Positions 28,233-53,110 of a stretch of DNA of 64,000 bases are shown here, piece by piece. Within the stretch, counting starts at the first letter, position 1. Each line of letters starts with the position of its first letter. This DNA comes from Candidatus Methanodesulfokora washburnensis (GTDB taxonomy: Archaea; Korarchaeota; Korarchaeia; Korarchaeales; Korarchaeaceae): contig NZ_RCOS01000062.1 in the NCBI RefSeq assembly GCF_003947435.1, forward strand, positions 62,001 to 126,000, given 5' to 3'. The position numbers and the translations under genes were made by a program. The notes under the pieces were generated by a model. It did no database searches, had not been told where the DNA came from, and was given only the letters and a program-made list of their open reading frames with translations.

Positions 28233-28387
28233 TTGTTATTTCTCCTGCATGAAGAAGCCGAAGTTAACAGTTCTGGTGTATAAGTTTTATAGTACCTTTA
28301 TTTTGGGTTATATTAAAAAGGAATTTTTGATAAATTAATTAGAGGAAAGTTACTGGGATAATGATATCACTCCTCCATAAACTCAGA

Positions 28388-28410
28388 ACCCGGAGCCAAT
28401 GGCTCCGGGT
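28388..28410. terminator. Perfect 10-bp hairpin next to attL
   Basis: ACCCGGAGCC, loop AAT, GGCTCCGGGT. It touches the left att repeat on the chromosome side. Before integration it would have stood directly after the 3' end of the minus-strand tRNA-Ser, so it may have been the processing or termination hairpin of the S19-tRNA transcript. There is no T-run. It could equally serve the end of the S10 transcript. Confidence 0.4.
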
Positions 28411-28469
28411 ATACGCCGGGGGTGGGATTTGAACCCACGAGGCCCGATTGGGCCACCGGCTCTCAAGGC
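28411..28469. repeat. attL: 59-bp copy of the tRNA-Ser 3' half
   Basis: Identical to 53020-53078. On the minus strand it runs from the anticodon stem-loop (GCCTTGAGAGCCGG) through the variable arm and T arm to just past the acceptor end. It is a tRNA fragment, not a functional gene: the sequence left of it (ACCCGGAGCC...) and right of it (TTCCCCC) does not complete the cloverleaf. Confidence 0.92.
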
Positions 28470-29372
28470 TTCCCCCTTATGAAAAATGGAGAATCTAAAG
28501 GCTCTAAAATCCGTGAGGGACTTCACGACTTGAGAATTGAGAATGATGAGAATAAGAGAATATTAGATGATTTCAGAGATTATTTGCTGATAGACAGGCA
28601 GCTGGAAGAAGGAACTGTTGAGAGGCACATTTTGGAGATAAAGAGACTATTTAAGAACTCAGATTTCAACCCTCTTCAAGCTGAAAGGTCTGATATAAGG
28701 AGATATTTGATGAGATTCAAGGATCTATCCCCCTACAGCTATGCAAACATCTTAAAGGCACTGAGGATCTTTTACAGGGATTACTTGGGAAAGCCAGAGG
28801 TCATTCAGGGGTTCAAATTCCCAAGCAGACCCTACAAATTGGTCAAGATTCCCCCGAAGAAAGATCTCAAGGAATTTTACAGCTGGCTGAAGGAGCCCTT
28901 AGCCAAAGCGATGTTTTTGATCTACGCCACAACTGGACTTAGGAGAAAGGAGGTTCTTTCACTCAAAATTGGGGATATAGATTTTGAGAGGAGGATGATA
29001 ATTCCAAGAGGGGGATCGAGGACGAAGAAGACATGGATTACCTTCTACAACTATGAGGCAGAAGAGGCCTTGAAAGAGTGCTTGGGATCTTTTTCCAATT
29101 TAAAAGGAGAGGAAAAGCTCTTTCCATTCGGCGAGCACTATTTCAGGAATAGATGCAAGCAGTTTGAGAGAGAAAGGGGAGTAAAAATAACCCCTCAGGT
29201 GCTGAGGGAGTGGTTTGCCTGCGAAATGGGAAGGCTGGGAGTTCCTGATAGGTATGTCGATGCTTTCTGCGGAAGGGTTCCAAGGAGCGTTTTGGCAAGG
29301 CACTATACAGACTTCAGCCCAGAAAAGCTAAAGGAAATATACGATAAAGCCAATCTCAAAGTTTTGAGCTAA
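28422..29372 (+). CDS. SSV-type tyrosine integrase, C-terminal part Int(C)
   Basis: Tyrosine recombinase with an N-terminal SAM-like core-binding region and the catalytic domain. Catalytic motifs: ATTGLRRKEVLSL (Arg), a beta-hairpin Lys in SRTKKTW, VLREWFACEMGRLG (Arg), and LARHYTDFS with the nucleophilic Tyr. Box residues Gln/Trp replace the usual His, as is common in archaeal integrases. The frame is open from the att repeat (GTG 28422, reading VGFEPTRPD); the first ATG after the repeat is 28479. Codon-by-codon, the frame continues from Int(N) at the right end, so this is the 3' portion of an integrase gene split by integration. Confidence 0.88.
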   Translation: MGFEPTRPDWATGSQGFPLMKNGESKGSKIREGLHDLRIENDENKRILDDFRDYLLIDRQLEEGTVERHILEIKRLFKNSDFNPLQAERSDIRRYLMRFKDLSPYSYANILKALRIFYRDYLGKPEVIQGFKFPSRPYKLVKIPPKKDLKEFYSWLKEPLAKAMFLIYATTGLRRKEVLSLKIGDIDFERRMIIPRGGSRTKKTWITFYNYEAEEALKECLGSFSNLKGEEKLFPFGEHYFRNRCKQFERERGVKITPQVLREWFACEMGRLGVPDRYVDAFCGRVPRSVLARHYTDFSPEKLKEIYDKANLKVLS

Positions 29373-29894: not shown

Positions 29895-31553
29895 TTAGCT
29901 GTGGGCTTGCAACAACTGCTTAACTTGTTTTATAATCAATTCGGGACATTCGATTTCATCTATCCATTTTAGAGTTCTAAAATCGTCCCAAGCTCTCCGC
30001 CAAACAGGACAAACAGGGGATTTTACCCCTGTTTTTGAGTTCATTTTTAGTGGTTCGAATTTTTCAGATGAAATTTGAGGAGAGATTTCAATTTTCGAAC
30101 TGTTTGTCTCTTTAACAGCTTTTGATATGAGCTCAAATGGCTTTGTGTAGGTAAAAGCGAGTTTATTCCCATTTAAGAAAAGCTCCTTGAAAACAAGCCT
30201 TATTAATTGTCTTTTCTCTTCAAGATTGGCTTTTAGATAGATTTCTTTTGCTCTTTGGGATAATTCGTAGAGGTTTAATCCGAGCTCATAGTACTTCAAG
30301 TTGGCCCTCTCATGCCTTTTGATTGCAGATTCAATTTCCTCTTTCTCCTTTGAATACTGCTTAAGCTTCCTCTCGTAGAATTCTTCAGATATCTTTCCAT
30401 CCAGCTTATCATCGTAGAGCCTGTCTAACCTATTCAAAATCATCTCATACCTTCTTTTAAGCTCGTTTAAACATGCTTCACGGTAGGCGATTTCGTCTCT
30501 GTGGCTGTCCTTTAGGGCTTTGTGAACCCACTCCATTAACCGTTTATTCTTTATCTCAAGGTTTCCGAAGGCCTCTAAAACCTGCTTTTCTACTTCATTC
30601 TCTTTAACCCAAGTCTTCTGAGCACATCTTCTGTATTGGCTACAATGGCCGTAAACAATTCCCTTGTGTTTTTCCCAAGTGATGAGCCTCTTGCATTCAC
30701 CGCACCTAATTAATCCCTTGAAAAGCCAGAGGTGCTTTCTGTATTTTGGGGTAGTCTTCCCATTTAACACTCTCTGGGCTCTATCGAATAATTCTTTTGA
30801 AATTATGGGTTGATGCTTTCCGTCATAAAGCTTTCCATTCCATCTAATCTTCCCGTAGTAGAATGGATGTGATAGGAGAGAAGCCATCCTAGACTTACAG
30901 AGCTTATTACCTTTTTTCGTCCTCAAACCTTCTTTCCACATCACTTCAACAAGTTTTTCCAGAGAATAATTTCCAGTAGCATAAAGCTCAAACATCTTCC
31001 TAATTAAGGGAGCTTTCTCCTCATCGATCACCGGAATTTTGTGTCCTTCGCTCCCAACAAGCTTATAACCCAATGGCGGAACTCCGGGAAGCCAACCTTG
31101 ACTTATTTTCTCCATCTGTCCCTTCTTTATCTCCTCAGAGAGGTTTTCAATGTAGTTTTTAGCTAAAATAACCCTTATTCCCCAATTTAACTTCTCTTGA
31201 GACCTAGAGTTTTTGTGGAGGACCAATGAATCTTTGACTAAGTGGACCTGCCTTTCAGGATCTTTCTCAAGCCATTCATCAATTAAAACAGCATCCTTTA
31301 AATTTCTAGTTAACCTATCAACCTTTTCGCAGAGAATGATCTTAATGTCGTTTCTCTTTACAAAAGAGAGCATCTCCTTGAAAATTTCTCTTTGTCGTTT
31401 CCCGCTTGCAGATTCAGAGACTGAGAAAATCCTTGCAACTTCAAAACCCTTCCTTTCAGCATACTCTCTGAGGAGTTTCTCTTGAGCAGGTAAGGAATAA
31501 CCAGTTTCCTCCTGCTCCCTTGAACTAACTCTCGCATAGATTACTGCCTTCAT
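29895..31553 (-). CDS. Large serine recombinase
   Basis: A 552-residue recombinase. The resolvase catalytic domain has the nucleophilic serine in YARVSSREQEE near residue 10, with KVDRLTRN near 100. A recombinase domain follows (residues 170-270), then a zinc beta-ribbon (CGECKRLITWEKHKGIVYGHC), then a coiled coil (about 360-450). It breaks and rejoins DNA through a serine linkage and can integrate, excise or resolve DNA. From memory the sequence style is like recombinases of Patescibacteria, not typical archaeal enzymes. A database search would be needed to confirm. It is the second recombinase of the element. Confidence 0.88.
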   Translation of the reverse strand: MKAVIYARVSSREQEETGYSLPAQEKLLREYAERKGFEVARIFSVSESASGKRQREIFKEMLSFVKRNDIKIILCEKVDRLTRNLKDAVLIDEWLEKDPERQVHLVKDSLVLHKNSRSQEKLNWGIRVILAKNYIENLSEEIKKGQMEKISQGWLPGVPPLGYKLVGSEGHKIPVIDEEKAPLIRKMFELYATGNYSLEKLVEVMWKEGLRTKKGNKLCKSRMASLLSHPFYYGKIRWNGKLYDGKHQPIISKELFDRAQRVLNGKTTPKYRKHLWLFKGLIRCGECKRLITWEKHKGIVYGHCSQYRRCAQKTWVKENEVEKQVLEAFGNLEIKNKRLMEWVHKALKDSHRDEIAYREACLNELKRRYEMILNRLDRLYDDKLDGKISEEFYERKLKQYSKEKEEIESAIKRHERANLKYYELGLNLYELSQRAKEIYLKANLEEKRQLIRLVFKELFLNGNKLAFTYTKPFELISKAVKETNSSKIEISPQISSEKFEPLKMNSKTGVKSPVCPVWRRAWDDFRTLKWIDEIECPELIIKQVKQLLQAHS

Positions 31554-32253: not shown

Positions 32254-32874
32254 CTACAGCACAGTTTCTCTCCATCTGGCTAAAAGTTCCTTCCACTTAG
32301 AAGGCTCAAAGTTCTTTGCCAGTGAAGGAAGTATTTTTCTTCCTACGAAGTCCTTATCTGTGGCCGGATATTTATCTAATTCTTTAAAATACTTTCTCTC
32401 GTTTGTATAAGAAATTTCTGCAACAGCCATCAGTATATCTTTTGCAAATTCCTCATTCAGGTTTTCTTCTACTTTAACAGTGAGTACTTTTATTAAATAT
32501 GGATCTAGCCGATAGAACAAAAACCAATAATAACTATCATATATCACATAATACCATACATTCAACTTCTCTGCGTAATTTTTAACCTTCTTTGAATAAG
32601 CTGCTAGGCTTTTTCCTGGCTGATTAAAAACTCTTCGTTTAGTTTCAATTATGAGCTTTGGTTTTAAACTCCCATACTCTTTAGAGAAGATAACAAGGTC
32701 CGCTCTTTCTTCCTTTCTCTCCTTAATTTTTATTGGAACCTCGGGTATAACCTCTGAAAAAACTTCTTTATAGGAGTCTTTTGAATATTCCACTCCATAT
32801 TTGATTGCATTCTTAAAGACTCTGTATACTTCGCATTGTACATAACTCTCCTTTTTTAACTCTTCTAATCTCAT
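32254..32874 (-). CDS. PD-(D/E)XK nuclease-like protein, HsdR N-terminal type
   Basis: A 206-residue protein resembling the nuclease domain at the N-terminus of type I restriction HsdR subunits, without the helicase. The probable active site is RADLVIF with LIIETKRR (D...ExK). It is the last gene of an operon with ImmA/IrrE-like and XRE genes; overlap with the former is 4 bp. It could be a defence or toxin-like nuclease, or a DNA-processing enzyme of the element. Confidence 0.65.
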   Translation of the reverse strand: MRLEELKKESYVQCEVYRVFKNAIKYGVEYSKDSYKEVFSEVIPEVPIKIKERKEERADLVIFSKEYGSLKPKLIIETKRRVFNQPGKSLAAYSKKVKNYAEKLNVWYYVIYDSYYWFLFYRLDPYLIKVLTVKVEENLNEEFAKDILMAVAEISYTNERKYFKELDKYPATDKDFVGRKILPSLAKNFEPSKWKELLARWRETVL

Positions 32875-33356
32875 CCAGTTTTTTCTAAGGATTTGAATTT
32901 AAGCCTTTTCCTCATGAAGTTTTCTGAGACCTGAAACTCTTCAGCTAGTTCTGAAACAGGGTCTAGGGATTCTTGAACCCATTCTTCCTTCAATTTCTCA
33001 TTTAACTTATCCTCCGGAATTAAAAGGTAGGCTGCAAATACTTCAGCTTCCTTCTCCTGTCTTCTCTGCTTCCAGTAGTTGAACCTGTCATCTCTTTCAT
33101 CCAGAAAGTAGTTCACTCTTGTGTTTCTGTGGAATAGGTGATGAGCTAGGCCATGAGCAATTAAATGCCTCTTCTTATAAGGATGCAAATTCGGATCTAT
33201 CACGATAACACCTTCATCCTTTATGTAAACCTCCTTGATTATCTTCCCTAAGGGGATTTCTATAACTTCTGCTCCCAATTTTGAAGCCAAAAGCTCAAGG
33301 TCATCTATTCCATACTTTTCCCTTATCTCATTTGCTTTCTCAATTATGTGCCTCAT
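32871..33356 (-). CDS. ImmA/IrrE-family protein with altered HExxH motif
   Basis: A 161-residue protein like the zinc peptidases that cut XRE-type repressors on mobile elements. The metal motif reads HGLAHHLFH instead of HELxHHLLH, so both histidines remain but the catalytic Glu is Gly. The third ligand region is present (EKEAEVFAAYLLIP). It may bind the XRE protein without cleaving it, or use another base. It overlaps the XRE gene by 4 bp. Confidence 0.8.
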   Translation of the reverse strand: MRHIIEKANEIREKYGIDDLELLASKLGAEVIEIPLGKIIKEVYIKDEGVIVIDPNLHPYKKRHLIAHGLAHHLFHRNTRVNYFLDERDDRFNYWKQRRQEKEAEVFAAYLLIPEDKLNEKLKEEWVQESLDPVSELAEEFQVSENFMRKRLKFKSLEKTG

Positions 33357-33703
33357 GTTTTCTTTTTCCTCATTCTTCTCTCTTTAACCTTTAAGTAGGC
33401 ATTAATTATAGCCCTTTTATCTCTTTCTGGCAAGCTCGGAATATCCTTGAATAAGCTCAAAAGCTCAGGCTCCTTTATTCCTAAGGCCTCAAGTTTTGAC
33501 TCCAAAAGCATGTCCTCAAGCACTTTAAACGGAACATCCAAAGCCTTAGCGATCTTCTTCAACTTTTCCCTTGATGGGATGAAGTGCCCGCTCTCAACAT
33601 CAGAAATATAGCTGTTTGTCTTATAGCCAAGCCTCTCAGCCAACTGTTGCTGAGTTAATCCCTTCTGTATTCTCAGTTGTTTCAATTTTTGGCCAAAATT
33701 CAT
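33353..33703 (-). CDS. XRE-family repressor
   Basis: A 116-residue protein with a clean HTH_3 domain (LRIQKGLTQQQLAERLGYKT, SYISDVESGHFIPSREKL) and a helical C-terminus. ATG 33703 is the real start, 15 nt downstream of the -10 box; the track start 33727 lies inside the promoter. With the ImmA-like protein and the nuclease it forms a typical mobile-element control operon. It is the best candidate for the repressor acting on the repeated promoter units. Confidence 0.85.
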   Translation of the reverse strand: MNFGQKLKQLRIQKGLTQQQLAERLGYKTNSYISDVESGHFIPSREKLKKIAKALDVPFKVLEDMLLESKLEALGIKEPELLSLFKDIPSLPERDKRAIINAYLKVKERRMRKKKT

Positions 33704-33717
33704 ATCGCCTATAGATG

Positions 33718-33746
33718 ATATTAGCAAAAGCGAAAATTATTGTCAA
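33718..33746 (-). promoter_or_regulatory. Consensus sigma-70-like promoter of the XRE operon
   Basis: Minus strand: TTGACA (33746-33741), exactly 17 bp, TAATAT (33723-33718), then ATG 33703. This is an almost perfect bacterial promoter. No archaeal TATA/BRE pair is as well placed. An imperfect palindrome (ATATC...GATAT) spans from the -10 to the start codon and could be an autoregulatory site. Confidence 0.6.
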
Positions 33747-34150: not shown

Positions 34151-35074
34151 TTATTTTCCTGATCCTGTAGTAAAGGTAGTCCAATTAGAGCGAGAGCTTG
34201 TTCCACTAGTATCCATATAGAGCACACACCATTCGTATTCGGTATTTGGCTGGAGTATCCCGGAAGGGACTTTAGTGCTTGTCAGATCATAGGTGCGCCA
34301 TCCGCTGTTCCAAACCAATTTTTTGTCTTTTTCTACAAGTATTACCCACATAGTTTTCAAGTGAGAATCTCCATCCGGATCGCTGAAGGGTGATGCACGT
34401 AGGGTTGGGGTTAAAGAAACACCCGTTGTCCCATTCGGTGGTTCCAGATTAGAAGGTTTATTGGGGAACCTATTGTCTATTTTCTCCTTAATGAGAACCC
34501 CACCATTTGTTTCAGCGACCCAGCCGGCAGATTGCGGAAATATCACAAACCACCAAGTTAATCCCCCTGCGTATTCGGGTCCTCCAGTAACTGTGCCTAT
34601 CTCACCCGCATGCACTGTGCCTTTTACTTCCCCATTAGGCTGTTTAAAAACATCCACAGTCTGAGCCACAACCTCTATGATATCTCCTCGATTGATCTTG
34701 CCATCAATGCTCTTACGTGGTTTCTTGAAGATGCAACCATTCTCCAATATGATCTCATTTTTTCCTATCTTCCCCCTATAAACAGCTTTGGTGCCAAAGG
34801 TTTCTATGATGAGTGTTATCTTATCTCCTTCGATCTCGTACTTTCCAGCAACAGTGTACTCTCCAGTGTAAGTGTACTTACCTGATGTATAATAGAGCTC
34901 TCCATTTGGTCTGAATTCAAGGGTGTTCCCTATTTCACACTGTTCGTCCTTAACAACGCAGAGATATTCCCCGATAAGTCCCCCTCTTGAAATTGGCGGT
35001 AAGAGAATGTAATAAACCAGACCACCTATGATAACTACCAGAATCACAGCCAGCAGCCACTTCATATACGACAT
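34151..35074 (-). CDS. Membrane-anchored SH3-like/Fn3-like surface protein
   Basis: About 307 residues. One N-terminal helix (WLLAVILVVIIGGLVYYIL), then a beta-rich segment, then an SH3-like domain (near residues 130-190: VDVFKQPNGEVKGTVHAGE ... AGWVAE), then a Fn3/Ig-like domain (NKPSNLEPPNGTTGVSLTP). Bacterial SH3 domains of this sort bind cell walls. Start chosen at ATG 35074 after GGTGGATCC; the ORF is open to 35116. It belongs to a block of surface genes with the GH25 protein. Confidence 0.65.
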   Translation of the reverse strand: MSYMKWLLAVILVVIIGGLVYYILLPPISRGGLIGEYLCVVKDEQCEIGNTLEFRPNGELYYTSGKYTYTGEYTVAGKYEIEGDKITLIIETFGTKAVYRGKIGKNEIILENGCIFKKPRKSIDGKINRGDIIEVVAQTVDVFKQPNGEVKGTVHAGEIGTVTGGPEYAGGLTWWFVIFPQSAGWVAETNGGVLIKEKIDNRFPNKPSNLEPPNGTTGVSLTPTLRASPFSDPDGDSHLKTMWVILVEKDKKLVWNSGWRTYDLTSTKVPSGILQPNTEYEWCVLYMDTSGTSSRSNWTTFTTGSGK

Positions 35075-35262
35075 AGGATCCACCGCATTTCGAAAGAGTG
35101 CCCAAAATATAAACATATCTCCGTATTAGTGAAATAGGGAGGGCCTTTATAACAGGGGGCTTGCAATTATTCTTATCGAACTGAACAAAAAATACCTCTT
35201 TTTCGCAGGTGGTACAGAACTTTGCCTCTGGTTCCGACTCTACCCCACAACCCGGGCAGTAC

Positions 35263-35844
35263 TCACCTTTCTTCAGGTGATTTAGCTTCTGCTATCTTGG
35301 AACCACAGTAGGGACAAAATAACGAGCCGTTGGGTACTTTTTTCCCACAATTAGGACAGGTATCAAATTCTCCGGATATTTCACTAATTCCTTTGTGCAA
35401 TAGGGTAGTCCATTTCTCGATGCTACCTAATAGGGTGCTTGCTATTCTAATCGCTGGCAAAATTGCGACAGCCAAGAAGATAAGCGAGTAAACCCAGGTA
35501 GCTCCTATTAAGAATGGATAACACATACCTTTGAATGAAGCATATGCTATCCATATCGCTCCAAGGTAAGCTAAATTCGAAGCAATAACAGCGACTTCAG
35601 GAAAGGTTGGGAAGGTACTTTTAATGGAGGAACTGATTTCATATCCAAATCTCAAGACTATGGTTATCATCATTACGGCAATTATTGCAGTGACGATATC
35701 AGGAATCCCAAAGGGTATTCCGGGAATCGGAACTTCCATGCCAGGCAATCTGACTGCAATAGCATTGATTATTCCTAAGACTATCAGGGAAATTACTAGT
35801 TTAATAATGGGCCTGTAAATTCCAGAAATTTTTCCAAGAGACAT
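35263..35844 (-). CDS. Membrane protein with C-terminal zinc ribbon
   Basis: 193 residues, about four membrane helices (residues 10-135), then a zinc ribbon (CPNCGKKVPNGSLFCPYCGSK). Function unknown. Just after the stop, the +1 frame encodes a second zinc ribbon (YCPGCGVESEPEAKFCTTC) down to about 35205, so the gene may once have ended in two ribbons and been cut by a frameshift near CCTGAAGAAAGG. It lies 23 bp downstream of the GH25-vWA gene on the same strand. Confidence 0.65.
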   Translation of the reverse strand: MSLGKISGIYRPIIKLVISLIVLGIINAIAVRLPGMEVPIPGIPFGIPDIVTAIIAVMMITIVLRFGYEISSSIKSTFPTFPEVAVIASNLAYLGAIWIAYASFKGMCYPFLIGATWVYSLIFLAVAILPAIRIASTLLGSIEKWTTLLHKGISEISGEFDTCPNCGKKVPNGSLFCPYCGSKIAEAKSPEER

Positions 35845-35867: not shown

Positions 35868-37637
35868 CTAAAGCTTGTTATTTAAACTTTTCTTTGATAT
35901 GGAGCGCCATGTGAAAATTCCTATTAATAAAAAGATCAAACTTAATATAAGTAATGGAACGTATCCATGGATGGAGAAAGCTTGAGCTGAAGGTAAGACG
36001 TATGTTGAGATCCATACATAATATTCCTCTTTTTGAGGAACTATTTTTCCATAAACTTTCACAGTCCAAGGACCTGCCAAGGGATTCTTTATTATGACAT
36101 ACTCTGGTTTAACATCCCCTGAGTAAATAACGTTAGGCGCTGTGAAATTAATTTCTTTTCCTAATGGATCATAAATTTTTAAATCTAAATTGCTTCCTTT
36201 CCAGTTTAAAACCACCCTGATAGAATCTGTACCAAAGGCAACATTAAACGTTCCTGCTTTTACTATTTCTCCCTCCTTAACACTTCCCGTGAATGTAGAT
36301 TCAATCTTCCATCCAGTTGTTCTCAGCCCACTCTCTATGAAGATGTTTTCAAGCTTGAAAGAATCCGAAGCATAATAATATTTTCCTCCAGTACTTTCTG
36401 CCATTTTTCTGAGAAATTCTTCACGAAGATAGCTTGGATCTCCATAGCCAATAGTATAAATTTTTATTTTCTTATCTATTGCTTCTTTAACAGGCCCCTC
36501 TAAAACATCTTCTTCCTTCATCCCTGTTGTAATATGCCCATCGGTAAAGAAGACTATGGCTTTCATAACGCCAATTCCAGTTTCAAGTTCATTTAATGCC
36601 TCCTTTAAAGCCTCACCTATGTTCGTGTATCCACCCGGCCATGCTTTACTGATGGCATTTTTAACAGCATCGAAATTTGAAGTTAAATGGACATCAACAT
36701 GGGCATCAGTAGCAAACGTTATAAGAGCAATTCTATTTCCCGGCAATATTACATTAATGAGAGCCTCTGCTGATTTCTTAGCTGAATCAATCTTCATCTC
36801 TCCTTGCCATATATCTCCCATACTTCCTGAACGATCAATCACAAGGACTATGTCAAAATTCTTCGCAGGAGTTATAATGAATTTTCGCAATTCAGTTTCA
36901 TCGCCATTAAACAAATTTAGATCTGCCTTTCCATTAGCAAGATTAACGTCCCGTTGATATTGCCAAAATGCCCAAGTCTTCCATCCTCCTGTCTCAGGAA
37001 AATCGATAGAAGTGGGTTCCCTATTTATGGGATCGGCAATCCAAATATCGTACTGATCAACTATGGTAGAATCTCTTAAAAAGTAAAATAGAAACGAATT
37101 CATATATAAAATAGGTCTTACGCCGGTTTTCCCCTCTACAGTGTCCATCCACTCCTTTATCCACTGTGCAAGTTTTTCCTTACCTAGTAGTTCTGGATGT
37201 AGTTCTCCAAGTTTTGGATGCTTTATATCTTCAATATCTAAAGCAGGTCTGAGGTATCCCTCCTTAAGATAATTTCCAGCAAGTTGAAGGAAACTTTCTG
37301 CTTCATCTTTAGCTTTGTTAAGTGGGTTTCCTTCTTTATCCACAGGAAGTCCAAAATGATAAACACCTACTAAAAAACCTGCTCTGCGAGCATCCTCTAC
37401 CCTCTTTTCAAAACCTGGTTTTGCCCAATTTACTCCTTCAGTGGCCTTGACAAATACAAATCTATAACCTAAGTGGTACACTTCTGACCAATTTATATCC
37501 TCTCTTACATCAATTCCTTTTACTCTTTTACTTGATTGAGCTAAAACTTCAACCCGAGGAATATGTCCACTCAAGATTATGCTGGCCATCATCAAGCCTA
37601 TAAATAGAAGGACAGAAAATTCTTTCTTCAATTTCAT
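35868..37637 (-). CDS. Secreted GH25 muramidase-von Willebrand A fusion, membrane anchored
   Basis: 589 residues. Signal peptide (LLFIGLMMASIILSG), then a GH25 lysozyme-type domain at about 40-255: KGIDVREDINWSEV, FVFVKATEGVNW, VGVYHFG, the DxE motif in PALDIEDIK, and WAFWQYQRDVN. A vWA domain with full MIDAS follows at about 260-430: VIDRSGSMG, GGYTNIG, FFTDG. A beta-rich region leads to a C-terminal helix (LLILSLIFLLIGIFTW). GH25 enzymes cut bacterial peptidoglycan, which archaea lack. It could be an antibacterial or bacterium-binding surface protein, or a wall-passage factor inherited from a bacterial host. Confidence 0.85.
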   Translation of the reverse strand: MKLKKEFSVLLFIGLMMASIILSGHIPRVEVLAQSSKRVKGIDVREDINWSEVYHLGYRFVFVKATEGVNWAKPGFEKRVEDARRAGFLVGVYHFGLPVDKEGNPLNKAKDEAESFLQLAGNYLKEGYLRPALDIEDIKHPKLGELHPELLGKEKLAQWIKEWMDTVEGKTGVRPILYMNSFLFYFLRDSTIVDQYDIWIADPINREPTSIDFPETGGWKTWAFWQYQRDVNLANGKADLNLFNGDETELRKFIITPAKNFDIVLVIDRSGSMGDIWQGEMKIDSAKKSAEALINVILPGNRIALITFATDAHVDVHLTSNFDAVKNAISKAWPGGYTNIGEALKEALNELETGIGVMKAIVFFTDGHITTGMKEEDVLEGPVKEAIDKKIKIYTIGYGDPSYLREEFLRKMAESTGGKYYYASDSFKLENIFIESGLRTTGWKIESTFTGSVKEGEIVKAGTFNVAFGTDSIRVVLNWKGSNLDLKIYDPLGKEINFTAPNVIYSGDVKPEYVIIKNPLAGPWTVKVYGKIVPQKEEYYVWISTYVLPSAQAFSIHGYVPLLILSLIFLLIGIFTWRSISKKSLNNKL

Positions 37638-37894: not shown

Positions 37895-38569
37895 TCACTT
37901 AAAGAATCTAAAGGTGGAGAGCATTTTATTAAAGGTTTCTTTTTCTTTAATTTCATCAAATTCTTTCAATGGGCCTTTATAATCGGGGGTATAAATTACA
38001 CCACTATAATAAAGTTCAAAGGTGAGATGGAAACAGTAATCATTGTGATAAGTACTAAAGTATTGGGTAATAATACAACTACCCATTCCGCAATCCCCTA
38101 CTTCTTTCTTGTAAAAGACTACTTTATTAAAGATCACTCTTTCTGATTTTAGTTCCTCTAGAGTACCGGGAGCACGAGTATATTCAGGAGCAGGGTCGGA
38201 GCATTCTTCACGATTCTTATTATCTATAAAAATTTTTAAATACTTTCCAGTTAGGTTTGTACCGGGGGTAAGTGGAAGATCTATTACGATGCTTTTCCCA
38301 ACCTTTCCCACTTTTGAGTCTTTTGGATATTTCACTTCAAATCCATACTCTTCATTTGTATAAGTCTTCCAATCAGAGACATCAACTTCTTCCAGCTCGG
38401 TAGGAGCGGGTTCTTTTGGCATTTCTTTTTTAGGCTCTTCCTTAGATGCTTCGGGTTTTTCCATAACTGGAGCTGGTTTTTGTTTTACATAGAAAATGCT
38501 TATTCCTATTGTCCCAGCTACAAAGAGAACTAATGCTCCTATTAGAACCCATTTTAATCTATTGAGCAT
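37895..38569 (-). CDS. Membrane-anchored protein with a PsbP-like motif
   Basis: About 224 residues. An N-terminal helix (VLIGALVLFVAGTIGISIF), a Pro/Glu/Lys-rich linker, then WKTYTNEEYGFEVKYPKDSK, a motif common in secreted bacterial proteins of the PsbP-like type, and a Cys-containing beta domain. I prefer ATG 38569; the track start is TTG 38593, only a few bases beyond an extended -10 box. A decayed paralogue lies at 39887-40331. The gap 37638-37894 upstream of GH25 holds no gene. Confidence 0.65.
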   Translation of the reverse strand: MLNRLKWVLIGALVLFVAGTIGISIFYVKQKPAPVMEKPEASKEEPKKEMPKEPAPTELEEVDVSDWKTYTNEEYGFEVKYPKDSKVGKVGKSIVIDLPLTPGTNLTGKYLKIFIDNKNREECSDPAPEYTRAPGTLEELKSERVIFNKVVFYKKEVGDCGMGSCIITQYFSTYHNDYCFHLTFELYYSGVIYTPDYKGPLKEFDEIKEKETFNKMLSTFRFFK

Positions 38570-38603
38570 GATCTTAAAGAATCTATTTTTCAACCTTTAC
38601 ACA

Positions 38604-40418: not shown

Positions 40419-40605
40419 TGATGAATTCATAAAGGTTGCACTCAAGATGGGATTGAGAAAGAGAGGAAGCTAGGATTGATTGTCTTGACTGAGTGTTCGG
40501 CATCTTTCGAGCAGAGTTAAGAGTAGAAAGAGCGTTTAATTGAGAGGGGGTTGCTGGAAATGGTTGCCTATTTATTTTGCCTTGAATTATCGCATTTTAA
40601 CGATT

Positions 40606-40914
40606 ATGGCTTACACGAAGATTGAAAACAAAATACTGGATAAGATCTTGACCTCAAACTTCACTAAAAGACAGCTAAAGATTCTTCTTTTCATAATCAG
40701 GTTTTCCTATGGATTGGGAAGAAAGTATGCTGTTTTGAAGAAGAGAGATTTTTATTTTACGGGCATTCTCCCCTATTATGTTGAAGAAGAACTGAAAAAG
40801 TTGATTCTTAGAGGAGTCATAAAGTGGAATCCAAAGCTCGGAATCTCCTGGATCAACAGGAACTTGAAAGAATGGGTCGATAAGGGGCAGAAGGTAGATT
40901 TGTTTAAAGGCTGA
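40606..40914 (+). CDS. Phage replication protein O-like DNA-binding protein
   Basis: About 102 residues from ATG 40606 (AYTKIENKILDKILTSNFTK, RQLKILLFIIRFSYG). This matches the N-terminal origin-binding winged helix of lambda O-type replication proteins. The longer track frame from 40540 has no support. Together with the next gene it probably starts replication of the element. Confidence 0.7.
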   Translation: MAYTKIENKILDKILTSNFTKRQLKILLFIIRFSYGLGRKYAVLKKRDFYFTGILPYYVEEELKKLILRGVIKWNPKLGISWINRNLKEWVDKGQKVDLFKG

Positions 40915-40915
40915 T

Positions 40916-41638
40916 ATGGAAATACGGAATCAAAAAATTGAGATTAGGAGTATCGGAGATGGAGATTGGTACTGGATCCCAAGGGTTATTTTTGAAGATT
41001 ACACTCCAAAGATAGGTGTGATAGGTTTGGCTTTGTACAATGCCTATTCCTCATACGCAAGGGATAAGGGTGTAGCATTTCCATCTCAGAGAACTTTAGC
41101 TGAAAAGCTTGGAGTAAGCATCAAGACGATAATCAAGTATAACAGGGTATTGGAAGCTAATGGTTTAATTAAGGTTGAGAGGAAAAAAGGTAAGGGGAAA
41201 ACTAACCTAGTTACACTTTTGAAGGTTGAAAATGTGAAGCAGGTTCAGACCCATCCTGTAACAGGTTCAGTTAAGGTAGTGAAAGAGGTTCAGACAAAAG
41301 AAAATAATATGAAAGAAAACACTATAGAAGTGGATGCTAAAGCATCTCCAATAGATGTAATTGATTACTTTAAAAAGAGGGTAAAGGAGTTAAAGGGATT
41401 TTGCTCTGAGATTGATTACGGAAAGGATGGAAGACTTGCTAAGGAGAGGCTTAAGAAATACTCCTTTGATGAGATCAAAAATTTAATAGATTGGTACCTG
41501 AATTCGGAGAATTTTGAGAAGTTTGGAGCTTCACTGTCGGTTTGTCTATCGAATTTCATCGTCAACTTATGGAAGGCTAAAAAGGTTGGGGAGAGGAACA
41601 TCGAGAGCCTTTACCCATTATGGCGAGAGGGAAGTTAA
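40916..41638 (+). CDS. HTH_36/replication-initiator-like protein
   Basis: 240 residues. A winged helix at about 40-100 (IGLALYNAYSSYARDKGVAF, RTLAEKLGVSIKTIIKYNRV) and a C-terminal helical domain rich in Phe and Lys. Such proteins are replication initiators or DnaD-like loaders of plasmids and phages. It begins 1 bp after the Rep O-like gene and its end overlaps the next gene by 19 bp. Confidence 0.65.
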   Translation: MEIRNQKIEIRSIGDGDWYWIPRVIFEDYTPKIGVIGLALYNAYSSYARDKGVAFPSQRTLAEKLGVSIKTIIKYNRVLEANGLIKVERKKGKGKTNLVTLLKVENVKQVQTHPVTGSVKVVKEVQTKENNMKENTIEVDAKASPIDVIDYFKKRVKELKGFCSEIDYGKDGRLAKERLKKYSFDEIKNLIDWYLNSENFEKFGASLSVCLSNFIVNLWKAKKVGERNIESLYPLWREGS

Positions 41639-41913
41639 AATCACCATACAGGAAGGGATATTTGAAAGAGCTTGAGGTAATGAGGATTCTGAGGAATTCA
41701 GGAAAGTTTGATGTTGTCTTCAGATCGGCAGCTTCCCACTCGCCATTCGACATAGTTGCGATTTCGAAATCAAAAGTCCTTCTTTTGCAGGTTAAAACTG
41801 GAAGCTTCAACTTAAAGAGAGAAATTGAGAAGTTGAGAGAAATTAAGACGCCAAGAAGTGTTGAGAAGCAGCTTTGGATCTTAAACAAGAACTGGAAGAT
41901 AATCAGATGCTAA
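41620..41913 (+). CDS. Holliday junction resolvase-like nuclease (Hjc-like)
   Basis: 97 residues with the Hjc pattern: RKGYLKELEVMRILRNSG, VVFRSAASHSPFDIVAI, and VLLLQVKTGSF. The Glu, Asp and QxK active-site residues of the PD-(D/E)XK fold are in place. It would resolve branched DNA during replication or recombination of the element. It overlaps the upstream gene. Confidence 0.8.
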   Translation: MARGKLKSPYRKGYLKELEVMRILRNSGKFDVVFRSAASHSPFDIVAISKSKVLLLQVKTGSFNLKREIEKLREIKTPRSVEKQLWILNKNWKIIRC

Positions 41914-41914
41914 T

Positions 41915-42148
41915 ATGCTTGAGAGAAACTTCAAGTTAATAATTCTTGAGCTTCAGATAATTCTTGAGAAAGCAAGGGACAAAAGCCTCTCTGAAAGGGA
42001 GAGAGAGGAAATTAGGAATTGGTTAGAGAAAATAGAGGGAACTTTAAACAGAATAAAGGAAGTTTGCAGAATTGAGAGGGAAAATTTGAGTATCTTTTCA
42101 AATAAATTGACTGAGAAAATAGTTAGCGATGCTACACAGAGGGACTGA
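41915..42148 (+). CDS. Small helical protein of unknown function
   Basis: 77 residues, mostly helical and charged (LIILELQIILEKARDKSLSE, REEIRNWLEKIEGTLNRIKE), with coiled-coil character. It begins 1 bp after the Hjc-like gene, so is likely part of the same transcript. No family recognised. Confidence 0.55.
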   Translation: MLERNFKLIILELQIILEKARDKSLSEREREEIRNWLEKIEGTLNRIKEVCRIERENLSIFSNKLTEKIVSDATQRD

Positions 42149-42272
42149 AAACAAAAGATCTTAGAATTTGAAGCAAATATATCAATTATGGAAGGAAAAT
42201 GAACAAAAAAGAACCTTAAAACTCAAAATGGAAGGAAATGGATGACTTTCTCTTCGTCGCCTTCGGCTCGCT

Positions 42273-42334
42273 CGCTCCGTGAACCCAGATCCTGAGAATT
42301 CGGGATCTAGGTTGGCGGAGCGAAAAAGCTCCGC
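42273..42334 (+). promoter_or_regulatory. Competing-hairpin leader before the DUF932 gene
   Basis: CGCTCCG (42273-42279) pairs with CGGAGCG (42316-42322) around an inner stem AGATCC/GGATCT. The same CGGAGC also pairs with GCTCCGC (42328-42334) across a GAAAAA loop. The two stems exclude each other. GGGAGGTGAGAG and ATG 42349 follow directly, so the fold could control translation or transcription of the DUF932 gene. The rest of the 200-bp gap holds no ORF. Confidence 0.45.
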
Positions 42335-42348
42335 TGGGAGGTGAGAGA

Positions 42349-43338
42349 ATGAATTTGGTTGATTTGGTGAGAGAACTTGAGAGGCAGAAGAGGAACAGAT
42401 TGGATCTTATTGTGGAGAGCACCACATTAAAAGCAGTACCCGACGAGGGAGATGGGATAAGGTTAGAGATACCTGAATACGGAGAGTTTCCTCTAACGGA
42501 ATGGGCTCACGGACAATTAGCAGATAAGCTGGAAATTCCTAGGAGATACTACGAGAGAATGAGAAATTCAGGGAAATCAGAACTTTTAGCTGAGAATGTG
42601 AATGCATGGCTTGGAGAAAGGGAGAGAAGGTTAATAAGGATTTTGGACGGGAGAATAAGAGCCATACTATCGGATAGATACAGGATGATGGACAACTATG
42701 ACCTTATCTTTCTAGCCCTAGATGAGTTCAAAAAGAAAGAAACTGTTGAAATCTACAGGATAGATTTGACTGAGACAATGCTCTATCTGAAAGCTGTAGA
42801 CAGGACACTAGCAGAATCGATAAGGGAGGGAGATGTGGTTCATGGTGGAATAATCATAAGGAACTCTGAGGTCGGTGCCTCAGCTTTAAGAATAGAGCCT
42901 TTCATACTGAGGAGAGTATGCGGAAATGGCCTAATCCTCCAGCAGTCATTAAAGAAGATACATTTAGGAAGAGAGACATTGGAAATAGGGGAGATAAACT
43001 GGTCCCATGAGACAAGGGAGCTTGAGGACAGAGCTATTTGGGCAAAGATAAGGGATATAATCAGGGCTACATTTGATAAACAGATATTCCAGTCATGGGT
43101 CAAAAAGCTAAGGGAGAGCACTCAAGTGAAAATTGAAAAGCCAATTGAGGCAGTTGAAAACATTGTGGGGCATCTGAACTTAAGCGAGGAGCAAAAACAG
43201 AGACTTTTAATGCACTTTTCAGAGCCAACAAAATATGGGCTGATAAATGCAGTGGCAAATCTGGCAGGAGAGTTAAAAGACGTTGAGGAACAGGTAAAAC
43301 TTGAGGAATTCGCAGGGGAAATGCTGGAAGGTGAGTGA
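42349..43338 (+). CDS. DUF932 phage/plasmid-type protein
   Basis: 329 residues with the DUF932 features WAHGQLADKLEIPRRYYERM, RAILSDRYRMMDNYDL and RRVCGNGLI. These proteins are common in phages and plasmids of bacteria and archaea; their role is unknown but linked with element replication or host takeover. A strong GGGAGGTGA site lies before the ATG. The stop abuts the next start. Confidence 0.75.
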   Translation: MNLVDLVRELERQKRNRLDLIVESTTLKAVPDEGDGIRLEIPEYGEFPLTEWAHGQLADKLEIPRRYYERMRNSGKSELLAENVNAWLGERERRLIRILDGRIRAILSDRYRMMDNYDLIFLALDEFKKKETVEIYRIDLTETMLYLKAVDRTLAESIREGDVVHGGIIIRNSEVGASALRIEPFILRRVCGNGLILQQSLKKIHLGRETLEIGEINWSHETRELEDRAIWAKIRDIIRATFDKQIFQSWVKKLRESTQVKIEKPIEAVENIVGHLNLSEEQKQRLLMHFSEPTKYGLINAVANLAGELKDVEEQVKLEEFAGEMLEGE

Positions 43339-43968
43339 ATGTCTGCCTCAGAAAAATGCATTGAAAAACTTTTCATCGATATGAAGCAAAAATACATTGA
43401 AGAAAGAGAGAAAACAAGGGAGAAGTTCAAAAGAGAGGGAAAGCAGGTAATTTTTGTCCATGAGCTCTGTGAGTGCCCAGAGAAGAGGAGAATGAGGCAG
43501 AGGTTTCCGGATATAGAAAGAGCAGAAATTTACAATCCAAGATTTGCTGTTGGACAGCTGATAGAGGAAGCTTTGAGGCAGAGATTCAGGGGAGAGGAAA
43601 GGAAATGCACTAAAGAATTGACAGTTGATGGAAAGCCCTATTTAATAAGCGGAACGATAGACATAGTTGAGCCAGAAACAAAAATCCCAATAGAGGTTAA
43701 GTACCAAACCTCAATTCAGGACAAACCCTTTGAGCACCACATCTTGCAGCTCAGATTCTACCTCTGGCTAATTGGTTCTGAGAGAGGAGAATTGCTCTAC
43801 GTGAGCCCGGAGGGATTGAAATTCTTCATTATAAGGAAGCCGTTAACCGATAGAGAGGTAATCGAGCTAATAAAAGATGAGAAATCTCCCAGATGGCCAG
43901 AATGGGAGTGCCAGTACTGTCCATACAGGCAGTTCTGTAGCAAAAGCAACTGCAAACACAGAAAATAG
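43339..43968 (+). CDS. Cas4-like PD-(D/E)XK nuclease with Fe-S cysteines
   Basis: 209 residues. FVHELCECPEKRRMR supplies the first cysteine, ISGTIDIV and IPIEVKYQT give the nuclease Asp and ExK, and CQYCPYRQFC gives the C-terminal cysteines. This is the Cas4/AddB-type architecture with a [4Fe-4S] cluster. No CRISPR array or cas1/cas2 is present, so a role in element DNA end processing is more likely than adaptation. A terminator hairpin follows. Confidence 0.78.
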   Translation: MSASEKCIEKLFIDMKQKYIEEREKTREKFKREGKQVIFVHELCECPEKRRMRQRFPDIERAEIYNPRFAVGQLIEEALRQRFRGEERKCTKELTVDGKPYLISGTIDIVEPETKIPIEVKYQTSIQDKPFEHHILQLRFYLWLIGSERGELLYVSPEGLKFFIIRKPLTDREVIELIKDEKSPRWPEWECQYCPYRQFCSKSNCKHRK

Positions 43969-43988
43969 CTCTTTTCAGTTCTTTTAAT

Positions 43989-44024
43989 GCCAAAGGGGCA
44001 AAATACCCCTTTGGCTTCTTTTTT
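43989..44024 (+). terminator. Intrinsic (Rho-independent type) terminator
   Basis: GCCAAAGGGG, 7-nt loop, CCCCTTTGGC, then TTCTTTTTT. A perfect 10-bp stem with a T-run is the bacterial form and unlike the plain T-tracts after host genes. It closes the replication/DUF932/Cas4-like block. Confidence 0.7.
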
Positions 44025-44077
44025 AGCTTCAATAAAAAGCAAAATCTTTTATTTAGGTTTAAACACAAAGAATTAAA

Positions 44078-44314
44078 ATGGAGAAAAACATTAAAACACT
44101 TGAAGAGGAGCTGAACTCAATAATTGAGATCTGTGATGAGAAGATAAAGCATTATAGAGCCTTAGTTGAGGAATATCAGATGATAAAAGGCTCTGCTTTA
44201 TCACTGCTTAATTTGAACAACGACACAAAGAGAAAGGCCGTTTCCCTTATAGATGCCTTAAAGAGAATAAAGTATGCACTTTACGCCTTAATGGAGAGCG
44301 AAAATGAGGATTAA
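44078..44314 (+). CDS. Small helical protein of unknown function
   Basis: 78 residues, helical (KTLEEELNSIIEICDEKIKH), no family recognised. A TATA-like CTTTTATTTAGG lies about 25 nt before the ATG, so it may be leaderless. The end overlaps the next gene by 11 bp. Confidence 0.5.
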   Translation: MEKNIKTLEEELNSIIEICDEKIKHYRALVEEYQMIKGSALSLLNLNNDTKRKAVSLIDALKRIKYALYALMESENED

Positions 44315-44654
44315 AGTTAAAAACATCCTTTGCCCAATCTGCCACAGCAGAACCTATTTTACTGGAAAAGTGGTTTATGAAAACGAGAGAACTGAGGTAA
44401 TAGAGTGGAAGTGTTCCGAATGCGGTGCAATTATGAAATCGAGGCATGACAAGCTAGGAAAGAAATACAGCAAAATTGCAGGTAAAAGAATACTGAGTTC
44501 AAGACCTGCAATCTGGATCAGAAAGGGAGGCTATTGGGATTTGTTATTCTTTGAGGTCGGGAAGAAACTCTATGCTTTCCGTTCAATTGATGTAGAGAGG
44601 TTAGAAAGGGATGAGATTCTAGCAATACCTGTTTATCAGGTTATAGCGAAATGA
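44304..44654 (+). CDS. Zinc-ribbon protein of unknown function
   Basis: 116 residues with two CxxC pairs (CPICHSRTYF and CSECGAIMKS) forming a zinc ribbon, then a basic stretch (RHDKLGKKYSK) and a beta-rich end. Probably nucleic-acid binding. Coupled to the upstream small gene. Confidence 0.55.
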   Translation: MRIKVKNILCPICHSRTYFTGKVVYENERTEVIEWKCSECGAIMKSRHDKLGKKYSKIAGKRILSSRPAIWIRKGGYWDLLFFEVGKKLYAFRSIDVERLERDEILAIPVYQVIAK

Positions 44655-46685: not shown

Positions 46686-49600
46686 TTATTTTTCTATATT
46701 CTTATACATAAACCAATATATTGTTTCAGCAACTATTTTCTCGTAGCCAGTAGTTTCATCCTTTATTTTTTCATATATTCTTAGTGCTTCTTCCTTTTTT
46801 CCTAGTGCCCAAAATGCGTCTCCGATAAACCTGTAGGCCAAAATGTCAGATTCACTTCTAAACCGTTGTTTCTCCAATATAGCCAAGGCAATTGAGTAAT
46901 ACTTTAAGGCTTTCTCGTTATTTCCTTTTAACTCTTCTTGAACAGCAAGATCTAACAAATCTTCTACTTTGTAAAAGTCAGGAATTTTTTGCGTACTTTT
47001 GCACTTCTGCTGTAAGAAGGAAAGTGCTATTTCATCTCTCAAATCTTTTCTAATGGAGAGAGCGCGTTTGAGACATATTTTGGCTTCATTCCATTTTTGA
47101 AGTTGATAACTTACATGTGCAAACTGACTGAGGTTTTGTGCATTATTGGAATCTATTCTAATATACTTTAAAAAACATTCTCTTGCTTCAGATAGTTTAT
47201 GATATTTCACTAGCCTGTTTCCTACAAAATTCCACTCTTTGATATCTTTCAAATAGTATGCTACATCAGCGTAATACTTCCAAAATATTGACATCTCACT
47301 TTTCCCTAATTTTTCATAACTTACTGCTACATACAATAATATATCCGGTATAAAAGAAAATACCTTTTCTTTTTCCTTCATCTTAGATGTAAGAAAACTC
47401 TCTTTAAACTTCTCAAATGCATTAATAGTTTCTTGGTACTCATTTATTTTATACATCCAATTAATTAAGTTAAAATAGCTTATGGGGGGATTCTCTATTT
47501 CTGCGATTTTGAATAGGAATTCTTTTGCCTTTGGAATGTTTCCCATGCGTCTGTAGCATAGTCCAATTCTTCCATAAAACCAACTGAGATGCACTCTTTT
47601 TTCTACATCACCTAGATTATTTGATTTAAGGAGAAGATTAATCCCCCTTTCTAATATGGGTATTGCATCTTCGGGTTTTTCCATCACCAAGAGATCTTCT
47701 CCATAGTCTCCACAATTCTTCCAGTTATCTGGATTGAGCTGATACGCCTTTTCGGAACACTCAATGCGAGCCTGAACACATTTATAATAAAGATCAGGCT
47801 TGGTTCTTTTCTTAATCCCAGTTTCCTTCATTAATTCCACGATATAATTTCTTACAGTGCCATATCCTATTGAAGTGTTTTCGACTCTTGCGGATTGAAG
47901 ATAATTATCCAAGGCATTTTCTAGATCTTCAATTTTGCCTGTTACTTGGTAAGACAGCTTATAAGAATCGGCCAGCGTAAGGTAGGTTATGTAGTCTTTT
48001 ATTCCCTGCTCTTTCTGATACTTTATGACCTCCTTGTGTAAACTTTCGATTTTTTCCTTCCAACGCTGAAATTCCTGTGTGCCATGTTTGTATTTTGGCA
48101 AAATGCGTTTTTGTAAGTAATGAGCGTAACTAACAAGTGATCTTAAATGAGTTCTCACTCCCAACTTATCGAGGGCATTTTCGTAACAATAAATTACTTT
48201 TTCATCATCATAAACTGCTTTATATTTTCTCGCTAGGCTCTCCCATAATTCAAAAAGTTCTTCCCGCACATAATCAATGTAATCTTTTGGAAGTTTTGAT
48301 GATTGCCATAATTCACAAAAGTATTTAGTGGCATCGTCAAGATATTCCTCACCCATCTTGGCGAGATCAACGCATAAGAAAACATCTGCTTTATCTTTGA
48401 ACCCATTTCGAAGGTGATTTCTTAGACTTATGGCAATATCTTCTTTCATACGTTGAAATTGCATGTCATTTATTTGTTTATAGAACTCAACTATATCTTT
48501 AAGTGAATAATCAATTTTTTCGGGTTGAGTTAGTCCTATACTAAGGCTTTCCCTCAAATGACTATCCATTGAAAAAAATTCCACATCTTTAAAAACAGAG
48601 CATTGAAGAAGAGATCTTAGATTTTTAATTTTGGTTTTAATATCCTTTTTCATTTCTTTCTGGACTAGTTTATCTATAACGAAATTGAAAAAGTAAGAGG
48701 AAAAATCTTGGCTCATGTGGAGGAGCAAAAGAAGTAAAAAGGGAATGACATTGTCCTCATATACATAATACCCTCTTTTTATTGTTTGCCACATAAGATT
48801 GGCAATTCCTTGGGGGAACTGACTAAGAGTTTCCTCTGAAAAACTTCTATTATTTGATTTCAGATCAGTGACTATGTAGCGGATGTAAATAGGTTTTCCT
48901 TCACTTTTAGAAGCCAATAGGTTCATAACTATTTTTTCTCTATCAGAAGGAACCTCGTACTGAATCTTATAAGAGTTTAAGTATTTCTTAAGAATTGCTT
49001 CAGGGTTTAATTTTTGAGGAGTAATCTCATATACAAAATAATTCTCAGGATTCTCAAATATTGGTGCAAATTCCTTTTGCTCCCTAAGATAACCATATTC
49101 ATCATCTCTTATTGTAATGAGCACTTTAAAAGGACCGACTACTCCTTCCTCTGTTTTTCCTTCTGCAGCAGTTAATTCTCCGATGGCTAATTTAAATAAA
49201 TAAAAGCATCGTTTCTTAAAAACTTCATCACCATCTCCTCGTTGCGGTGCATCAAGAACAAGAAGTGTTTCCTCTGGTTTATACTTAAATAAATCTTCTG
49301 CCCATAACTCATAACCATTCGGGTTAAGAAAAATAATTCTTTTAAAAGGTCTAAGTTTACTTTGTAAGAGTTCATCGAGCCTCCAGAGCATATATGTAGT
49401 TTTTCCCATCCCGGCTTTTCCTGTAATTATAAATATTCTGTAAGGATCAGATAAATTGAGAGGTTGAAGCATAGAAAAATCTACTTCTTTTTTAATGTCA
49501 CTCCAGCTCCTTCTTAATATTGCTTCACCCTTAATGAATTTTCCGAGAAAGGGATCCTCTATGAAAGGTTTCGTATTAACCACTTTTTCTAGGTCCTTAG

Positions 49601-49826
49601 CATTTTTCACTTCATAAGTTGCTTTTATTTTTATTTTCGGGAGCCTTCTTTGGGATTTATACCTGAAACAAAGATCAAGAATTGGAGGAAGAATCTGTAG
49701 AATGATTATTAATACCGACAGAATAGACACTAATATTTGCCATGACAGGATAGTTGGGAAAAACAATGCTATTCCAACTAACATGATTATCGTTGTGACT
49801 ATCGTAATCAACGTTCTTCTTTTCAT
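46686..49826 (-). CDS. Membrane-anchored STAND-type P-loop NTPase with TPR repeats
   Basis: About 1046 residues. Two N-terminal membrane helices (TIVTTIIMLVGIALFFPTIL; LVSILSVLIIILQILPPIL), then an NTPase with Walker A IITGKAGMGKTTYM and Walker B TLLVLDAPQ, an RDDEY sensor-like segment, a helical region, then about ten TPR-type repeats to the end. STAND NTPases with C-terminal repeats are often signalling or anti-phage defence proteins in which the repeats sense a target. Start set at ATG 49826 (MKRRTL). It lies just downstream of the coupling ATPase gene. Confidence 0.75.
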   Translation of the reverse strand: MKRRTLITIVTTIIMLVGIALFFPTILSWQILVSILSVLIIILQILPPILDLCFRYKSQRRLPKIKIKATYEVKNAKDLEKVVNTKPFIEDPFLGKFIKGEAILRRSWSDIKKEVDFSMLQPLNLSDPYRIFIITGKAGMGKTTYMLWRLDELLQSKLRPFKRIIFLNPNGYELWAEDLFKYKPEETLLVLDAPQRGDGDEVFKKRCFYLFKLAIGELTAAEGKTEEGVVGPFKVLITIRDDEYGYLREQKEFAPIFENPENYFVYEITPQKLNPEAILKKYLNSYKIQYEVPSDREKIVMNLLASKSEGKPIYIRYIVTDLKSNNRSFSEETLSQFPQGIANLMWQTIKRGYYVYEDNVIPFLLLLLLHMSQDFSSYFFNFVIDKLVQKEMKKDIKTKIKNLRSLLQCSVFKDVEFFSMDSHLRESLSIGLTQPEKIDYSLKDIVEFYKQINDMQFQRMKEDIAISLRNHLRNGFKDKADVFLCVDLAKMGEEYLDDATKYFCELWQSSKLPKDYIDYVREELFELWESLARKYKAVYDDEKVIYCYENALDKLGVRTHLRSLVSYAHYLQKRILPKYKHGTQEFQRWKEKIESLHKEVIKYQKEQGIKDYITYLTLADSYKLSYQVTGKIEDLENALDNYLQSARVENTSIGYGTVRNYIVELMKETGIKKRTKPDLYYKCVQARIECSEKAYQLNPDNWKNCGDYGEDLLVMEKPEDAIPILERGINLLLKSNNLGDVEKRVHLSWFYGRIGLCYRRMGNIPKAKEFLFKIAEIENPPISYFNLINWMYKINEYQETINAFEKFKESFLTSKMKEKEKVFSFIPDILLYVAVSYEKLGKSEMSIFWKYYADVAYYLKDIKEWNFVGNRLVKYHKLSEARECFLKYIRIDSNNAQNLSQFAHVSYQLQKWNEAKICLKRALSIRKDLRDEIALSFLQQKCKSTQKIPDFYKVEDLLDLAVQEELKGNNEKALKYYSIALAILEKQRFRSESDILAYRFIGDAFWALGKKEEALRIYEKIKDETTGYEKIVAETIYWFMYKNIEK

Positions 49827-49831
49827 TGTTA

Positions 49832-53099: not shown

Positions 53100-53110
53100 G
53101 CTACCCCGGC
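53023..53110 (-). tRNA. tRNA-Ser(UGA)
   Basis: Minus strand, 88 nt: acceptor stem GCCGGGG/CCCCGGC with discriminator G, D arm, anticodon stem CCGGC/GCCGG with loop CTTGAGA (anticodon TGA), a class II long variable arm (TGGCCCAATCGGGCCTC), and T arm GTGGG-TTCAAAT-CCCAC. No intron, and no CCA encoded. It starts 4 nt after the S19 stop, so it is probably cotranscribed with the ribosomal operon and cut out by RNase P. It is the integration target of the element. Confidence 0.97.

Follow-up and report, generated by a model that had tools for sequence, protein, structure and literature searches.

In a 64,000-nucleotide stretch of an archaeal genome (the window), an integrated mobile element encodes a 589-aa protein in which a GH25 muramidase domain of apparently archaeal origin is joined to a von Willebrand A (vWA), PPC and transmembrane (TM) part of host type, and which we think is rather likely to be a surface-held muramidase that attacks nearby bacteria. 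We favour this explanation because the catalytic chemistry is intact, the domain is related to a bacteria-killing lysozyme, its distribution is patchy and its gene lies on mobile DNA, while a longer branch (1.33), an altered active-site rim and the lack of a recognised peptidoglycan-binding domain weigh against it, as does the membrane tether, which gives the enzyme a short reach. The host is taken to be a Korarchaeum-like member of the Korarchaeaceae, presumably also the family of Korarchaeum cryptofilum OPF8. Judged from sequence comparisons, two points appear to be new: how the fusion is built, and that both of its halves come from archaea. The gene and its parts are located as follows:

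35868-37637, minus strand: GH25-vWA-PPC-TM protein, 589 aa (open reading frame, Pfam, alignments, AF2 and Foldseek)
36870-37532, minus strand: GH25 domain, residues 36-256, with catalytic D43, D134, E136 and D239 (Pfam, alignments, Foldseek)
36003-36869, minus strand: vWA and PPC region, residues 257-545, 46-47% identical to paralogues in the host genome (sequence comparison)

The preliminary description of this DNA had listed a signal peptide, a GH25 domain with the DxE motif, a vWA domain with a complete MIDAS and a C-terminal membrane anchor; domain searches, hydropathy and structure prediction bore these out, the signal peptide and the anchor as predictions, with the correction that a PPC domain had been overlooked and that the gene lies on the minus strand. 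Pfam places Glyco_hydro_25 at residues 46-232 (E 2.2e-30; PF01183 at 106.8 bits vs a cut-off of 27, covering profile positions 8-176 of 180), VWA at residues 262-433 (E 5e-22) and a weak PPC match, slightly short of the Pfam cut-off, at residues 463-530 (E 4.3e-5). Hydropathy peaks at residues 3-27, the signal-type N-terminus, and at residues 551-582, a predicted TM helix followed by a basic tail, and this fits a secreted, membrane-held protein with its domains presumably outside. All four catalytic acids of the GH25 domain are kept (D43, D134, E136 and D239, equivalent to D9, D98, E100 and D198 in 1jfx, the enzyme from Streptomyces), show little or no variation across 26 aligned bacterial and viral GH25s, and include the DxE motif as D134-I-E136, so that the GH25 assignment survives a careful alignment in which their loss was looked for. 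The AF2 model has a pLDDT mostly above 90 over this domain and was matched by Foldseek to the GH25 muramidases 2x8r, 2wag and 1jfx (TMt 0.78-0.82, with 0.82 for 2x8r), indicating a GH25 barrel fold, and the vWA half, which is the low-confidence half of the model, also matches vWA structures. The MIDAS of the vWA domain is complete (DRSGS...T...FTDG), with DRSGS, TNIG and FFTDG conserved in the host paralogues.

The rim of the GH25 active site departs from the conserved positions: S45R and Y203P are found, the HWQG loop following D43 is deleted, and the glycine preceding D239, present in 62/62 other GH25s, is absent, which suggests that substrate or activity may have shifted. Together with the longer branch of the domain and its fusion to a host-type vWA-PPC-TM part, this would suit a former muramidase which now acts on, or only binds, the surface glycans of its own or other archaea, for remodelling, superinfection exclusion or adhesion; such a change of role is harder to reconcile with the retention of the four acids and most invariant positions, and with nearest kin that include a lysozyme described, in an account of PMC4241558, as killing bacteria, and we give it a small though real chance. 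According to Pfam the 589-aa protein has no recognised peptidoglycan-binding domain, and only vWA and PPC accompany the GH25 domain.

GH25 domains are rare in the sampled archaea: one was found in 6/394 archaeal genomes, and the window gene is the only case among the 29 genomes searched from the host phylum. The best match is L216, from a genome (G878) of the phylum of Aciduliprofundum, with 53% identity; locus L017, which we take to be the GH25 enzyme locus of A. boonei T469, encodes a domain 44% identical to that of the window in the alignment, and GH25s of bacteria, phages and plasmids reach at most 39%. A single-sequence pattern scan of viral contigs and GTDB genomes gave no or only weak close relatives. 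The preliminary description had called for a GH25 phylogeny, and in a 68-row tree, the second one made, to which homologues from the A. boonei phylum were added and in which thermophilic Bacillota are thinly represented among the bacteria, the 19 archaeal GH25s, all others of which come from the Aciduliprofundum phylum, form one clade (support 100/100) with the window domain in a 6-row subclade (98/98). An AU test did not reject a placement of the window domain just outside the archaeal clade (p 0.26). An earlier tree with few archaea had left a direct bacterial origin possible (AU p 0.38-0.44); this origin was set aside, as the fuller tree puts the domain among archaea, with the same AU p of 0.26 for a position outside. 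Membership of an archaeal lysozyme clade and the 53% match to a genome of the Aciduliprofundum phylum thus argue for spread of the domain from archaeon to archaeon, probably with no fresh transfer from bacteria. The preliminary description had pointed to the GH25 transfer from bacteria to Aciduliprofundum, and of this link the kinship to the Aciduliprofundum lysozyme stands (same clade, 44% identity), while the reading as a fresh bacterial transfer probably does not, with the domain nested among archaea. As a separate observation, varied GH25 proteins (L216-L234) occur in about 18/390 genomes of the Aciduliprofundum phylum, which is more than the single A. boonei case, and the other members of the archaeal GH25 clade also differ in domain architecture.

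The vWA-PPC region has its closest counterparts in the same assembly, where two proteins encoded elsewhere (L002 and L003, on other contigs) match it with 46-47% identity; these have a TM helix, an FHA domain and a host-like GC of 0.44, and it is this GC by which their contigs are assigned to the host as against a bin contaminant. Plasmid-record matches to the vWA domain reach about 33% at best. From the likeness to the vWA-PPC-TM-FHA proteins, the fusion probably arose within the lineage of the host, where a GH25 domain would have been placed before a host-type vWA-PPC-TM part and the FHA domain lost. The two halves have nearly the same, element-like GC (0.375 and 0.373), indicating that they were not joined recently. 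A set of 131 GH25 ORFs from bacteria, viruses and archaea contained no second GH25-vWA fusion, among 390 genomes from the A. boonei phylum no match spanned both domains, and a literature search found neither a GH25-vWA fusion nor a korarchaeal lysozyme. The preliminary description had seen the vWA domain as an adhesion-type partner; its joining to the GH25 domain stands, but adhesion to bacteria is a guess, since the vWA part is of the host vWA-PPC-TM-FHA type, in which vWA-PPC sits above a presumably cytoplasmic FHA domain. The same assembly also encodes two surface proteins with vWA-PPC-TM-FHA and WD-like repeats (L060 and L061, on contigs C158 and C67), one of which is followed by a reading frame that appears kinase-like by eye, and a surface-to-cytoplasm signalling system is a possible function for these.

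The preliminary description had placed the gene on an archaeal mobile element, and exact att sites, an integrase and an empty site in a relative now define that element, with the following features:

28411-28469: attL, a 59-bp copy of the 3' part of tRNA-Ser(TGA), identical to 53020-53078
28422-29372, plus strand: tyrosine integrase, whose real start is probably at 28479, past att (Pfam Phage_integrase 5.4e-11, archaeal phage integrase 6.4e-9)
29895-31553, minus strand: large serine recombinase (Pfam Resolvase, Recombinase, Zn_ribbon_recom)
40540-44654, plus strand: replication/recombination module with Phage_rep_O/DnaD-like, HTH_36, Hjc-like, DUF932-like, Cas4-like nuclease and zinc-ribbon proteins
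46686-49853, minus strand: 1055-aa protein with an N-terminal hydrophobic region, a P-loop motif (read from the sequence) and TPR repeats
49832-52048, minus strand: type IV coupling-protein-like ATPase (TrwB/TraG/HerA; TrwB_AAD_bind 5.5e-15, T4SS-DNA_transf 1.2e-11)
53020-53110, minus strand: attR and the intact tRNA-Ser(TGA) gene (53023-53110; ARAGORN, Rfam, repeat and empty-site alignment)

The 59-bp identical repeats at 28411-28469 and 53020-53078 bound an insert of 24,609 bp with a GC of 0.378 vs 0.445 in the flanks. In a genome of the same genus (G002; protein identities to the window host of 98% for EF1A, 95% for S10 and 99% for S8e) the S10 and tRNA-Ser genes are adjacent, and the joined flanks of the window align unbroken across the junction, so that the locus combines what marks a tRNA-integrated archaeal element, i.e. 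att repeats at a tRNA gene, an integrase and an empty site in a relative. This bears directly on whether contaminating bacterial DNA has been misassembled into an archaeal contig, a possibility for which one could cite the large bin (2.94 Mb, where the other 28 genomes from the phylum have 0.5-2.2 Mb) and its contamination of 5.5%. The exact att repeats, the archaeal-type integrase, the empty site with continuous flanks, the archaeal kin of both GH25 and vWA and the relics of the same element in relatives all oppose it, leaving it a negligible probability; we regard contamination and misassembly as ruled out by the att repeats, the empty site and the unbroken flanks, and the archaeal host proposed in the preliminary description as upheld.

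Several properties of the element are recorded here in their own right. It carries both a tyrosine integrase (28422-29372) and a large serine recombinase (29895-31553), and at 32254-33727 one operon encodes an HTH protein, an M78 protein (ImmA/CapP-like, PADLOC capP 1e-18) and a 206-aa protein, which together may form a regulatory or defence module. The gene for the 1055-aa membrane-associated P-loop/TPR protein (46686-49853) overlaps that of the coupling ATPase and its product matched no defence model. At 40540-43968 this archaeal element has replication genes of bacterial-phage type (Phage_rep_O/DnaD-like), and among phage records the DUF932-like protein has its best matches in bacteriophages, no higher than about 33%. 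Between S10 and attL there are about 170 bp (28233-28402), as against about 30 bp at the empty site of G002, perhaps a trace of an earlier event.

The gene content of the element also bears on two further uses of a wall hydrolase. As an endolysin or cell-exit gene of a provirus, the GH25 protein would help release, which its match to a PHROG endolysin (6.2e-35) and the phage-like replication genes might suggest, but searches of the element recognised no gene for a capsid, portal or terminase (one weak terminase match fell on the coupling-protein-like ATPase), murein is absent from the host, and the protein has a membrane anchor and a vWA partner; this we consider very improbable. Alternatively, a surface hydrolase could aid the spread of the element by breaching a mating partner's envelope, which might permit contact with bacteria. 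Conjugative systems of bacteria commonly include wall hydrolases, and the element has integrases and the coupling-protein-like ATPase, the latter matching an NCBIfam VirD4-like model at 2.1e-16, under its cut-off. Of the relaxase, VirB4-type ATPase and coupling protein that mark a self-transmissible conjugative element, only the coupling protein was recognised among the scanned element proteins, although archaeal conjugation systems can lack a recognisable relaxase; as archaeal partners have no murein, and as relics of the element family in relatives lack GH25, a role in spread appears improbable, if less so than one in cell exit.

Other genomes of the phylum contain fragments of the same element family, among them a relic next to a tRNA-Pro gene. 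This relic (L206, G005:C1:216000-235000, positions 8897-9278) has 83% and 78% nucleotide identity, and in it a deletion joins a DUF932 piece to the right end of the element, while in another family of the phylum (genome G027, loci L205 and L209) there are fragments of the coupling ATPase and the DUF932 protein with 55-69% identity. No GH25 was found in these relics. Of the gene set which the preliminary description had proposed to look for in related elements, the Cas4-like, zinc-ribbon and DUF932 parts were matched and the other cargo was not.

Four genes lie close to that of the GH25-vWA protein:

34151-35116, minus strand: 321-aa membrane-anchored protein (TM 11-44) with a possible SH3-like middle and an Ig-like C-terminal domain (Ig_Rha78A_N 8.8e-6, slightly short of the cut-off)
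35263-35844, minus strand: 193-aa hydrophobic membrane protein with a C-terminal zinc ribbon (Zn_Ribbon_1 2e-8; hydrophobic segments)
37895-38593, minus strand: 232-aa protein with an N-terminal TM segment
38949-39845, plus strand: 298-aa protein without a family match

The gene for the 193-aa protein starts 24 bp downstream of the GH25-vWA stop codon and is preceded by a purine-rich site, and from this spacing and site the two genes are probably co-transcribed as one operon. In the 321-aa protein the putative SH3-like domain was not recognised by Pfam; this part has a low-confidence model (pLDDT 49) and shows a weak likeness to the SH3 repeats of A. boonei in a single comparison (BLASTP E 0.007). 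The binding of cell walls which the preliminary description had suggested for this neighbour is therefore conjectural.

On the explanation of a surface-held muramidase, this cargo of a 24.6-kb tRNA-Ser-integrated element would leave the cell of its Korarchaeaceae host by the general secretion route and be anchored to the archaeal membrane through the C-terminal helix, with the GH25 domain facing outwards on a vWA-PPC stalk. It would cut the MurNAc-GlcNAc strands of bacterial peptidoglycan close to the cell surface, so that adjacent bacteria would be weakened or lysed, for competition or for the release of nutrients, while the archaeon would be immune to its own enzyme because it has no murein. 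Through its metal site, the vWA domain would most likely tie the enzyme into a surface assembly or to a ligand. An antibacterial action is likely, with activity and target as predicted from the sequence. The GH25 domain would have come from the archaeal lysozyme lineage common to Aciduliprofundum and relatives, been joined to a host-type vWA-PPC-TM protein with loss of the FHA domain, and evolved further as a fusion inside the element. A more specific proposal, that the element gives the archaeon a membrane-tethered, vWA-guided lysozyme active only on contact with bacteria, which might also open bacterial walls for DNA exchange via the coupling ATPase, is speculative and rather doubtful; if a contact lysozyme were true, it would represent a new architecture for an inter-domain weapon, an archaeal lysozyme domain plus a host surface receptor, built in an archaeon. 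The ways in which archaea fight or feed on bacteria are largely unknown, and the findings suggest that archaea have passed a bacterial-type lysozyme lineage among themselves and refitted it with local surface parts, making the sharing of antibacterial genes among archaea a testable question.

Archaeal GH25 antibacterials were already known before the window protein: the GH25 lysozyme of A. boonei kills Gram-positive bacteria (PMC4241558, as described in PMC12352652), and archaeal peptidoglycan hydrolases have a patchy spread and are enriched on plasmids (PMC12352652). The A. boonei lysozyme (B5ID12) resembles the window protein in its GH25 clade, secreted-type N-terminus, C-terminal TM helix and murein-free archaeal host; thus the surface-bound state proposed in the preliminary description is supported by the predicted anchor, but such anchoring is not new. 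The two differ in architecture, with GH25-Amidase_6-SH3_3 x2-TM in A. boonei and GH25-vWA-PPC-TM in the window protein, which has neither the Amidase_6 nor the SH3_3 that together mark the A. boonei form, and also in location, a chromosomal locus among ordinary genes vs an integrated element. The modular archaeal peptidoglycan hydrolases, e.g. the M23-type Woldo of Halogranum (PMC12352652), are likewise archaeal wall hydrolases with a patchy distribution and a link to mobile DNA, but are defined by a catalytic and a recognised cell-wall-binding domain, so that the window protein, with vWA-PPC and an anchor, falls outside that definition. L002 and L003 share vWA-PPC (46-47%) followed by a TM helix, but differ in their N-terminal regions and carry an FHA domain at the C-terminus, whereas the window protein has GH25 on the N-terminal side and stops behind the TM helix. 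Finally, the L216 protein of G878, which is at least 904 aa (it meets the contig end) and has no vWA match to the window query, has the closest GH25 domain, and shares with the window protein the active-site stretch KEGYLRPALDIE.
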